Shown piece after piece: positions 40,399 to 43,345 of a DNA stretch of 64,000 nt (position 1 is its first letter; the number at the start of each line of letters is the position of its first letter). The stretch is from Thermomicrobiales bacterium (GTDB lineage: Bacteria > Chloroflexota > Chloroflexia > Thermomicrobiales > UBA6265), in contig JAHBVL010000009.1 of the NCBI GenBank assembly GCA_019637585.1, positions 1 through 64,000 of the forward strand, read 5' to 3'. Position numbers and translations under genes: made by a program. The notes under the pieces were generated by a model. The model did no database searches. It was not told the origin of the DNA and was given only the letters and a program-made list of their open reading frames with translations.

Positions 40399-40701
40399 AT
40401 GATGCATCCGTCAATCGAAGCCCATCGCGATGAGATCATCCTGCTCTGCGAGGAGTATGGTGTGGCGCGGCTGGAAGTCTTCGGCTCGGCGGTGAGCGGT
40501 AAGTTCGATCCGGATCGGAGCGACGTCGACTTCCTGGTCGAGTTCGGTGACCACTTCAGGTATGGAGGACTCCTCGACTTCAAGGAAGCCCTGGAGTCGT
40601 TGCTCGGGAGAGAAGTGCAGCTCGTCTCCCGAAAATACCTTCGCAATCCCTATTTCATACGTGCTGTCGAAACGACCAAAGTTCCCCTCTATGCTGCCTA
40701 G
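40399..40701 (+). CDS. MNT-type nucleotidyltransferase, antitoxin of a HepT/MNT pair
   Basis: Minimal nucleotidyltransferase (100 residues) with the polymerase-beta core LEVFGSAVSGKFDPDRSDVDFLVEF (GSx10DxD, residues about 28-52). In characterised HepT/MNT modules the MNT protein AMPylates and so silences HepT. It overlaps hepT by 11 bp. The second ATG is three bases in, so either could start. Confidence 0.9.
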   Translation: MMHPSIEAHRDEIILLCEEYGVARLEVFGSAVSGKFDPDRSDVDFLVEFGDHFRYGGLLDFKEALESLLGREVQLVSRKYLRNPYFIRAVETTKVPLYAA

Positions 40702-41038
40702 AAGCCCGAAGCTGCTCTGGGATATCCACAATGCCGCAGAGTGGATCCTTGAGTGGGCCGAAGGGAAATCCGTTGCCGAGCTCTTGAACGACGACTGGTC
40801 GCGACTCAGTGTGGAGCGGCTTCTTGAAATCCTCGGTGAGGCTGCACGCAGGCTGCGAGACTACGATCCCGAAACGGCCGACAGACTGGACAGTCTCAAC
40901 CAGGCGATCGCGCTGCGAAACATCATTGCCCACCAGTATGACGGTATCGATTACGAGCGAATCTGGGAGATCATCCAGCAGCATCTCCCTGGACTTCGGG
41001 ACGAAGCTCTGGCACTCCTTGAAGAGGCGGATGTGTGA
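40691..41038 (+). CDS. HepT-like HEPN ribonuclease toxin
   Basis: 115-residue all-helical HEPN domain with the catalytic Rx4-6H motif RNIIAHQYDGID (about 77-88), including the Tyr that MNT modifies in studied homologues. ATG 40691 lies inside the MNT gene; the overlap is typical of toxin-antitoxin coupling. The longer frame upstream is the antisense-free shadow of MNT and was discarded. Confidence 0.9.
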   Translation: MLPRSPKLLWDIHNAAEWILEWAEGKSVAELLNDDWSRLSVERLLEILGEAARRLRDYDPETADRLDSLNQAIALRNIIAHQYDGIDYERIWEIIQQHLPGLRDEALALLEEADV

Positions 41039-41088: not shown

Positions 41089-41117
41089 TTGACAGATTTC
41101 GTTCTCGCTGATAGCGT
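41089..41117 (+). promoter_or_regulatory. Sigma70-type promoter of the dapA leader
   Basis: TTGACA (41089-41094, perfect -35), 17-bp spacer, TAGCGT (41112-41117, 3 of 6). The expected start near 41124 lies just before Stem I of the T-box leader, which supports it. Confidence 0.65.
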
Positions 41118-41139
41118 ACCTACTCAGAAGACCGCAAAG

Positions 41140-41440
41140 GCTTCGACGAGGACGAGTAACCGGCGCGAGCGGTGCAGAGAACCGCGGTAGCTGCGAAGCG
41201 GGATCGGGACCGCCGGTGAATAAGACCTCCGAGCTTCGCTCCGAACCGTGGCGTGCCACGCAGTAGGCGGCGACGGGGGTGGGCAACCACCAATCAGCTC
41301 CCGTTACAGGGCTGCCGGATCGCGACAATGACCACAACGCCGTCCGGAAAGCGCGTGGCGATGCCAGTCGCCGCGAATTGGGGTGGTACCACGGGCCTGA
41401 CGCCGCTCGTCCCCACAAGGGGAGAGCGGTTTGTGTTTTC
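41140..41440 (+). ncRNA. T-box riboswitch leader, lysine (AAG) specifier, upstream of dapA
   Basis: Stem I: GAGG (41148-41151) pairs with CCTC (41226-41229), and ACCGGCG (41159-41165) pairs with CGCCGGT (41211-41217). Between them lie the loop with AGTA (41155-41158) and GAA-T-AAG-A, the AAG specifier codon at 41222-41224. The AG-bulge/distal-loop region GCAGAGA and GGTAGCTGCGAAGCGG follows the family. The conserved T-box GGGTGGTACCACGG is at 41381-41394, followed by the typical CTCGTCCCC. The terminator stem CCGCTCGTCCCC/GGGGAGAGCGG (41403-41428) with a T-rich tail ends near 41439. By T-box knowledge, uncharged tRNA-Lys should stabilise the antiterminator and switch dapAB on. Confidence 0.9.
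41403..41439 (+). terminator. T-box-controlled intrinsic terminator
   Basis: Stem CCGCTCGTCCCC / GGGGAGAGCGG around loop ACAA, then TTTGTGTTTT. Its 5' half is the sequence that would pair with the T-box in the antiterminator. Confidence 0.85.
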
Positions 41441-41488
41441 TCCGGGTTGGGCGTCACGTTCCGTTTGCTCGTAGCGCGGGAGGTGACC

Positions 41489-41548
41489 ATGGTCAGGCAC
41501 GAACACCCCAATCTGGTTCCTGTGCCCGATTTCGACATCAAGCGATAG
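41489..41548 (+). CDS. 19-residue leader ORF between T-box and dapA
   Basis: MVRHEHPNLVPVPDFDIKR, starting at ATG 41489 with a strong GGGAGGTGACC site just upstream, ending TAG 41546-41548. It sits after the T-box terminator and is followed at once by two hairpins. The good ribosome binding site argues for translation; the function is unknown. A cis-acting leader peptide or a tiny protein are both possible. Confidence 0.55.
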   Translation: MVRHEHPNLVPVPDFDIKR

Positions 41549-41608
41549 GCGCCGCGGCATCTGCCGCCGGCGCCGGAACAGACCGGCTCGTTCCACCGGG
41601 GAACGAGC
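41548..41608 (+). promoter_or_regulatory. Two hairpins between leader ORF and dapA
   Basis: First hairpin 41548-41574 (GGCGCCGCGG... with CCGCCGGCGCC), overlapping the leader ORF's last stop base. Second hairpin 41586-41608: perfect GCTCGTTCC/GGAACGAGC with 5-base loop. Neither has a T-run. They could modulate translation or mRNA stability of dapA, 38 bp further on. Confidence 0.6.
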
Positions 41609-41645
41609 TGCCCACGTCGTTTGACCGAAATCGGAGCTCAGAATC

Positions 41646-42572
41646 ATGATCCATATCACTCCTCCATCGACCCCATTCCTCTCGGGCGCCTACACCGCGA
41701 TGATCACGCCGCTGCGCGGCGATGAGGTCGACATCCCGGCTCTGCGCCAGATGACCGACTTCCAGATCGAGCAGGGGATCAGCGGACTCGTTCCCTGCGG
41801 CACGACCGGCGAATCGGTCACGCTCACCGACCGTGAGTACGATCTGGTCATCGCTACGGTGATCGAGGCAGCCGGAGAGCGAGTGCCGGTGATCGCAGGT
41901 ACCGGCACCAATGACACGCGGCGGACCATCGAACAGACCCGGCGGGCAGAAGAGGCCGGCGCAACGGCGGCTCTCGTAGTGGTTCCCTATTACAACAAGC
42001 CGACGCAGGAGGGGATGTTCCGGCACTTCACTGCCGTCGCTGACGCCACCGATTTGCCGATCGTCCTTTACAACGTTCCCGGCCGCACCGGGGTCAATAT
42101 GAGCGCGGAGACCACTTTGCGCCTGGCCGAGCACCCGAACATCGTGGCGGTGAAGGAAGCGTCGGGCAACCTGGAGCAGATCAGCGAGATCGTGATTGGC
42201 GCACCCGAGGGATTTGCCGTCCTGTCCGGGGACGACGCGTTGACACTTCCTGTCCTGAGCGTCGGCGGTCATGGCGTCATTTCGGTGACGTCGAACATCG
42301 CGCCACGAGCCGTATCGGAGCTGGTGGAACTTGGTCTGAGCGGTGACTTCGCCGCAGCCCGGACGCGCCATCAGCATCTTTTCGGGCTGAATCGAGCCAT
42401 GTTCTTCGACAACAATCCGACGGCAGTCAAGACGGCCGCGTCGATGCTGGGGCTCTGTTCGGCGGAGCTCAGGCTGCCGCAAGTCGAGATGTCGGCCGGG
42501 AACCATGCACGGCTCGGCGAGGCGATGACCGCTTTCGGACTAATGAGCGTGCAGGCGTTGGCAGCGGACTAA
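41646..42572 (+). CDS. dapA: 4-hydroxy-tetrahydrodipicolinate synthase
   Basis: First committed lysine/diaminopimelate step: condensation of pyruvate with aspartate semialdehyde (308 residues, TIM barrel). PCGTTGES (about 48), YNVPGRTGVN (Tyr relay, about 140) and the Schiff-base lysine in VAVKEASGNLEQI (about 168) are present. GGAG lies about 11 bp before the ATG. dapB follows after 2 bp; a lysine-specifier T-box precedes, consistent with feedback by tRNA-Lys charging. Confidence 0.96.
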   Translation: MIHITPPSTPFLSGAYTAMITPLRGDEVDIPALRQMTDFQIEQGISGLVPCGTTGESVTLTDREYDLVIATVIEAAGERVPVIAGTGTNDTRRTIEQTRRAEEAGATAALVVVPYYNKPTQEGMFRHFTAVADATDLPIVLYNVPGRTGVNMSAETTLRLAEHPNIVAVKEASGNLEQISEIVIGAPEGFAVLSGDDALTLPVLSVGGHGVISVTSNIAPRAVSELVELGLSGDFAAARTRHQHLFGLNRAMFFDNNPTAVKTAASMLGLCSAELRLPQVEMSAGNHARLGEAMTAFGLMSVQALAAD

Positions 42573-42574
42573 TC

Positions 42575-43345
42575 ATGATCAGACTTGGCATCGGTGGTGT
42601 TCAGGGACGGATGGGGCAGGCGATCTGCGCGTCGGTGGCGTCGGTGGAGGGGATCGTTGTCACGGGCGGGGTCGTGCGGGAGGCGATCGCCGCCCATGCC
42701 GGTGACGTTCTTATCTCGGATGATCCGGCGGAGCTGGTCGGAACGATCGATGTTCTTGTCGATGTGTCGACTCCGGACGGGGTACTGCGCAACCTGGTTG
42801 CCATGCGACAGGCATCGGTGCCCTATGTCTGTGGCGTGACTGGTTTGTCCGATGAGCACCAGGACGCGCTCATGGCCGCTGCCGTTGACATCCCGGTGCT
42901 TCTCGCTCCGAACTTCAGCGTTGGTGTTGCGGCGGTGACCCGGATACTCGAGCTTGCCGCGACGCTTCTCGCCGATGCCGATGTGGAGATCGTCGAAACC
43001 CACCATCGCCGTAAACAGGACGCGCCGTCCGGCACCGCTTTGCTCTTTGCCGATGCGATCGAACGAGCCCGTTGTGCAGCAGCACAGCGAGTGCATGGCC
43101 GAGAGGGCGTCGGTCCTCGCCAGCTAGGTGAAATGGGTATTCATTCAGTGCGTGGCGGAGGCAACTCCGGCGAGCATCGCATCCTCTTCGCCATGGATGG
43201 AGAGGAAGTCGCCATCGAGCATCGGGCGCTGGCCCGTTCCACGTTTGCCGACGGCGCCGTCCACGCGGCCCGGTGGATCGCCGGAAAACCACCCGGCCGC
43301 TATACGATGCAGGACGTGATCGAGCTCACCGTGCCGGAGATGTAG
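42575..43345 (+). CDS. dapB: 4-hydroxy-tetrahydrodipicolinate reductase
   Basis: NAD(P)H-dependent reductase (256 residues), the next step after DapA. GIGGVQGRMGQAIC nucleotide-binding start, DVSTPDGVL, VCGVTGLSDEHQDALMAAA, NFSVGVAAVTRIL and the catalytic HHRRKQDAPSGTALLFADAI are all visible. Its TAG stop (43343-43345) lies inside the first ten bases (TGTAGCGGCA) of a family B repeat. Confidence 0.95.
   Translation: MIRLGIGGVQGRMGQAICASVASVEGIVVTGGVVREAIAAHAGDVLISDDPAELVGTIDVLVDVSTPDGVLRNLVAMRQASVPYVCGVTGLSDEHQDALMAAAVDIPVLLAPNFSVGVAAVTRILELAATLLADADVEIVETHHRRKQDAPSGTALLFADAIERARCAAAQRVHGREGVGPRQLGEMGIHSVRGGGNSGEHRILFAMDGEEVAIEHRALARSTFADGAVHAARWIAGKPPGRYTMQDVIELTVPEM

Follow-up and report, generated by a model that had tools for sequence, protein, structure and literature searches.

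How is lysine supply sensed at the lysine synthesis genes dapA and dapB of a Thermomicrobiales bacterium, and is it sensed once or twice on the same leader transcript? The genes lie in the window, by which we mean the whole stretch of 64,000 nucleotides at positions 1 to 64,000 of contig JAHBVL010000009.1 (GenBank assembly GCA_019637585.1). We propose that they are preceded by a two-stage sensor of lysine starvation, in which a T-box is followed by a leader open reading frame (ORF) that is read by the ribosome, and we give this reading a probability of about 0.58. Its first stage, a lysine-specific T-box, is close to certain. Its second stage, ribosome stalling in the leader ORF, is likely, with translation of the ORF, stalling, and the opening of dapA deduced from the sequence.

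Table 1. Features of the dapA-dapB leader and its genes, in window positions.
Feature	Positions	Strand	Details
Promoter TTGACA-17-TAGCGT	41089-41117	+	-35 TTGACA 41089-41094, 17-nt spacer, TAGCGT 41112-41117
T-box leader (RF00230), Stem I to antiterminator	41134-41417	+	80.2 bits, E 1.1e-17
Specifier codon AAG (Lys)	41222-41224	+	specifier column of model; AAG in 9/9 dapA leaders
T-box sequence GGTGGTACCACG	41382-41393	+	UGGU fits tRNA-Lys discriminator A73
Intrinsic terminator	41403-41439	+	CCGCTCGTCCCC 41403-41414 / GGGGAGAGCGG 41419-41429, then TTTGTGTTTT
Leader-ORF Shine-Dalgarno box GGGAGGTG	41478-41485	+	anti-Shine-Dalgarno duplex -13.6 kcal/mol, best of starts reaching AAG
Leader ORF MVRHEHPNLVPVPDFDIKR, then stop	41489-41548	+	19 codons; equivalent short ORF in 9/9 leaders
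ORF segment complementary to dapA ribosome-binding region	41526-41545	+	duplex -25.9 kcal/mol
Invariant Lys codon AAG of leader ORF	41540-41542	+	9/9 leaders
Conserved hairpin, 6 bp + 1-nt bulge + 6 bp	41548-41574	+	covariation; model R1 52.1 bits
Partner segment including dapA Shine-Dalgarno GGAG 41633-41636	41617-41636	+	
dapA, 4-hydroxy-tetrahydrodipicolinate synthase	41646-42572	+	TIGR00674 339.5 bits vs cut-off 206
dapB, 4-hydroxy-tetrahydrodipicolinate reductase	42575-43345	+	TIGR00036 213.9 bits vs cut-off 122

The original prediction described a promoter that leads into a complete T-box leader, with a paired Stem I, an AAG specifier, a T-box, and a terminator, and with lysine synthesis genes downstream. 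The promoter can be read directly in the sequence, and the T-box covariance model RF00230 matches over its full length (model positions 1-219), with the predicted AAG in the specifier column and with Stem I, T-box, and terminator each in its place (Table 1). NCBIfam equivalog models identify the downstream genes as dapA and dapB, and dapB starts 2 nt behind dapA. The terminator overlaps the 3′ arm of the antiterminator, and its T-tract is imperfect. With its Stem I, specifier loop, T-box, antiterminator, terminator, and pathway-matched specifier, the leader shares the features of transcription-terminating RF00230 T-boxes. It differs from the usual RF00230 T-box in its score, which lies below the curated gathering cut-off of 93 bits, and in the addition of a second conserved element, formed by an ORF and a hairpin, before the gene. 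The interval 41089-41440 that was originally assigned to the leader takes in the T-box and stops short of the end of the conserved leader, which extends to dapA at 41646, and the second element at 41478-41645, between T-box and dapA, had been overlooked. The gene pair upstream of the leader (window 40399-41038) resembles an MntA-HepT type VII toxin-antitoxin, with both genes below curated cut-offs.

At the gathering cut-off the dapA T-box is not listed. The window genome holds seven T-box matches, only one of them above 93 bits, and the six other than that of dapA include five below this value; the low score therefore probably reflects GC-rich divergence. In five of these other T-boxes the specifier-loop column gives the codon of the gene's own amino acid: ACC for thrS, TGG for trpE, ATC for ileS, CGC for argF, and TTC for pheS, the genes being named by eye from their translations. 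The argF T-box (L005, G000 C23:308072-308324) is without a clear T-tract behind it and may for that reason act on translation. A weak T-box of 39 bits (L007, G000 C23:312634-312894) lies ahead of a LysX/ArgX-like ATP-grasp gene and has an ambiguous specifier column.

The identity of the sensed tRNA is consistent with the specifier. The window genome has tRNA-Lys UUU and CUU genes, both with A73 and an encoded CCA, and UGGU of the T-box complements A73 of both. The tRNA-Lys genes of relatives likewise carry A73, with a single mismatch at the discriminator contact in L073, whose Lys T-box reads UGGC against the A73 of the tRNA-Lys genes detected in its genome. The lysine riboswitch model RF00168 gave no covariance match in the dapA leader, and its best match in the whole genome, located elsewhere, scored 16.2 bits against a cut-off of 30, which supports the earlier suggestion that lysine is sensed here by tRNA-Lys charging rather than by a lysine riboswitch.

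Relatives point the same way. Among 32 genomes of the taxonomic family, nine have dapA above the curated cut-off, and a Lys T-box with an AAG specifier precedes the main dapA gene in all nine, in agreement with the original prediction. In one of these genomes (G004) the leader and the dapA start lie on one contig (L151) and the rest of the gene on another (L098). All nine leaders are drawn from one family and are therefore not fully independent. For eight dapA leaders RNAalifold gives 77 pairs, 26 of which show compensatory change. Of the eight leaders other than that of the window, six have a TTGAC(A/G) motif at a comparable distance; the remaining two are L074, which is cut by a contig end, and L080, whose leader is longer and has TTGACT further up. 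That the T-box call is wrong, or that another amino acid is read, is a very slim chance: the score below the gathering cut-off, the imperfect T-tract, and the UGGC of L073 would suit such an error, and they are set against an E value of 1e-17, the 26 covarying pairs, an AAG specifier in every one of the nine leaders, and the lysine genes downstream. The T-box reading of the dapAB leader is thus supported.

Beyond the main dapA genes of the family, a T-box was lacking from the stretches fetched for DapA homologues that belong to other families of the order and class, and none was found at a second dapA match above cut-off on another contig of the window genome. A scan of genome contigs with DapA returned distant relatives only and was set aside. 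Several same-family genomes that are more than 90% complete (for example G003, G011, G012, G017, G018, and G021) lack any dapA that passes the curated cut-off, and this points to a different lysine route in them.

The occurrence of T-boxes in Chloroflexi is established in general terms (PMC3766115, PMC2494555), and lysyl-tRNA synthetase genes are known to be under T-box control in rare cases, such as lysK of Bacillus cereus (PMC2916919). Such lysK-type T-boxes share tRNA-Lys sensing with the dapA leader, whereas they control a synthetase and the leader described here precedes the lysine-synthesis genes dapA-dapB. Our literature search, in which coverage of T-box surveys was incomplete, found no published account of dapA regulation by a T-box, including in Chloroflexi, and the novelty of the T-box assignment itself is therefore uncertain.

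The second element occupies a stretch of unusual length. From T-box core to start codon there are 264 nt at dapA, compared with ~70-103 nt at the genome's six remaining T-box genes (~83 nt at ileS, by eye). AAG is the only positionally fixed codon of the leader ORF, in frame and at the same place in all nine leaders; the codon after it varies (CGA, CGC, or CCC), and the ORFs end in IKR, SKR, SKP, or AKRQAPR, among others, before the stop, which in the window is UAG at 41546-41548. Lys codons are rare in this genomic setting, with 29 among 1550 codons in three window genes. The start codon with the best Shine-Dalgarno pairing shares the AAG frame in eight of nine leaders, the exception (L076) lying in another frame, and such agreement has a chance of ~0.001 on the assumption of random frames and independent leaders. 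What characterizes an attenuator, a short ORF with a ribosome-binding site and a cognate codon ahead of a structure, is present in every one of the nine. A run of cognate codons, the classical trait of leader peptides, is absent, and one Lys codon only is positionally conserved.

The C residues directly before and after AAG are invariant as well (CAAGC), so that the selected motif may exceed the codon. Such invariance beyond the codon favours an alternative in which CAAGC and the hairpin that follows it form a binding site for a regulatory protein or another RNA, with the open frame as a by-product, and a protein has been proposed for the LEU element of actinobacteria on the ground that control survived codon mutations (PMC1262725). 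As a by-product, the frame would have to contain AAG in phase with a start codon in nine of nine leaders and with the best-paired start in eight, and we consider this alternative distinctly improbable.

The conserved hairpin begins 4-5 nt past AAG in all nine leaders (5 nt in the window). In its alignment 99% of cells are paired, and seven of the 12 pairs show compensatory change, a count from which L080 was excluded for its variant hairpin. The covariation score was reached by none of 500 shuffles and was lost when the partners were slid against each other; conservation is poor in the sequence downstream. Across 158 genomes of the class, the covariance model of the element, R1, had strong matches at dapA leaders only, one per genome. 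Weaker R1 matches (L152-L155), without the T-box-dapA context, were judged to be due to chance. Classical transcription attenuation, with the hairpin as an intrinsic terminator, was rejected on finding no T-tract in the leaders read. A stable hairpin that lacks a T-tract, and hence is no terminator itself, might simply stabilise or shape the read-through mRNA, with the ORF incidental or merely keeping ribosomes on the leader, and the T-box, well supported, suffices as a mechanism. Control by the T-box alone leaves unexplained the in-frame AAG in nine of nine ORFs, its distance of 4-5 nt from the hairpin, and why the other T-box genes of the genome lack such a stretch, and we regard it as unlikely.

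We return to the two-stage reading. When lysine is short, uncharged tRNA-Lys would pair both with the specifier AAG 41222-41224 and with the UGGU of the T-box, and this pairing would favour the antiterminator, so that transcription would pass the terminator ending at 41439. The read-through mRNA would bear the short ORF, on which a shortage of charged tRNA-Lys would stall the ribosome at AAG 41540-41542, against the conserved hairpin that begins 5 nt further on. By occupying 41526-41545, the ribosome would, in the window, free the dapA ribosome-binding region at 41617-41634, and translation of dapA would open. With plentiful lysine, the ribosome would exit at the UAG and the dapA site would close. 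The two stages would thus act in the same direction.

The predicted output of the second stage was followed through the complementarity between the ORF and the dapA ribosome-binding region. In the window 41526-41534 can pair with 41626-41634 and 41538-41545 with 41617-41624, and the duplex compares with a shuffled mean of -12.6 kcal/mol, with none of 200 shuffles as strong. When the positions under a stalled ribosome are masked, the dapA start region goes from 0.84 paired to 0.53 in the window (one of 60 controls as good) and from 0.76 to 0.61 in L075 (none of 60). Simulated stalling opened the dapA site in none of the other seven leaders, three of which close slightly. We accordingly rejected an anti-Shine-Dalgarno mechanism shared by all nine leaders, the pairing being found in two of nine (window and L075). 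The sensing half is conserved, and support for the output half is limited to these two leaders; outside them, the output must work otherwise or not at all.

In the LEU element of actinobacterial leuA, Leu codons of the leader ORF can pair with the leuA Shine-Dalgarno sequence around an internal fold, and codon mutations deviated from the predictions of classical attenuation (PMC1262725); by analogy, this result may be taken as a warning for the second stage at dapA too. A comparable base stem between codon region and Shine-Dalgarno sequence is found in the window (0 of 200 shuffles) and in L075, and is absent in the other seven leaders. The dapA leader differs from the LEU element in reading Lys rather than Leu, in having one codon rather than a run, in preceding dapA rather than leuA, and in the T-box upstream. 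The second element of dapA would work like the LEU element without being a member of it.

A parallel in arrangement is rtpA (anti-TRAP) of Bacillus subtilis, which, according to PMC11255114 (citing Chen and Yanofsky 2003, 2004), combines a Trp T-box with translational control by tRNA-dependent ribosome stalling on one transcript. As proposed for the dapA leader, rtpA places a leader ORF that is read by the ribosome in tandem with a T-box, and the two sense the same tRNA in its uncharged state. It differs in its amino acid and target, tryptophan and a regulatory gene there and lysine and biosynthetic genes here, and the dapA leader has one conserved Lys codon and a covarying hairpin. In the literature found, tandem control by T-box and leader ORF is established for one case, the tryptophan-responsive rtpA.

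The arrangement may extend beyond dapA. In a sample of 60 T-box loci from relatives in the order, most synthetase T-box genes start within ~130 nt, and leuA starts ~210-300 nt past the T-box core. Several leuA leaders of these relatives hold Leu-rich ORFs, such as MFYRVSSLLRLSLSRPRGGATSDAGRA or MAARYLDLLGLFLLSLLRPLGGARGALGGCP, each followed by a stop, and resemble a T-box joined in tandem to the LEU element of actinobacteria. Pairing between Leu codons and the Shine-Dalgarno sequence is visible in them and is mostly no better than in shuffled controls. A Trp-rich leader ORF was sought in trpE leaders of the order and none was seen. We suggest tentatively, as something a little short of an even bet, a general design in the order by which T-box operons for biosynthesis, not those for synthetases, carry a second, codon-matched leader-ORF sensor, as for Lys at dapA in the family of the window and, in related families, for Leu at leuA and perhaps for Lys at lysX. 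The loci of this wider pattern, examined less deeply than dapA, fit the general two-stage design. If the design is real, tRNA charging would be sensed at two successive steps, by RNA and afterwards by the ribosome, with a single codon and a hairpin as the lysine type. A conserved lysine version on a biosynthetic operon, together with the leucine parallels in related families, would mark double reading of tRNA as a recurring design, and a ribosome-based lysine sensor would occupy the place where a lysine riboswitch is usually expected.

Individual loci of the sample illustrate both amino acids. At L240, L246, L255, L258, L265, L279, and L285, leuA has a Leu (CTC) T-box, a Leu-rich leader ORF, and a GC hairpin. 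The loci L244 and L247 each combine a lysX-like gene with a Lys T-box (AAG) that resembles the one at dapA, and an ORF with the Lys-rich stretch RKQKSVLKRLKACK follows the T-box and overlaps the start of the lysX-like gene.
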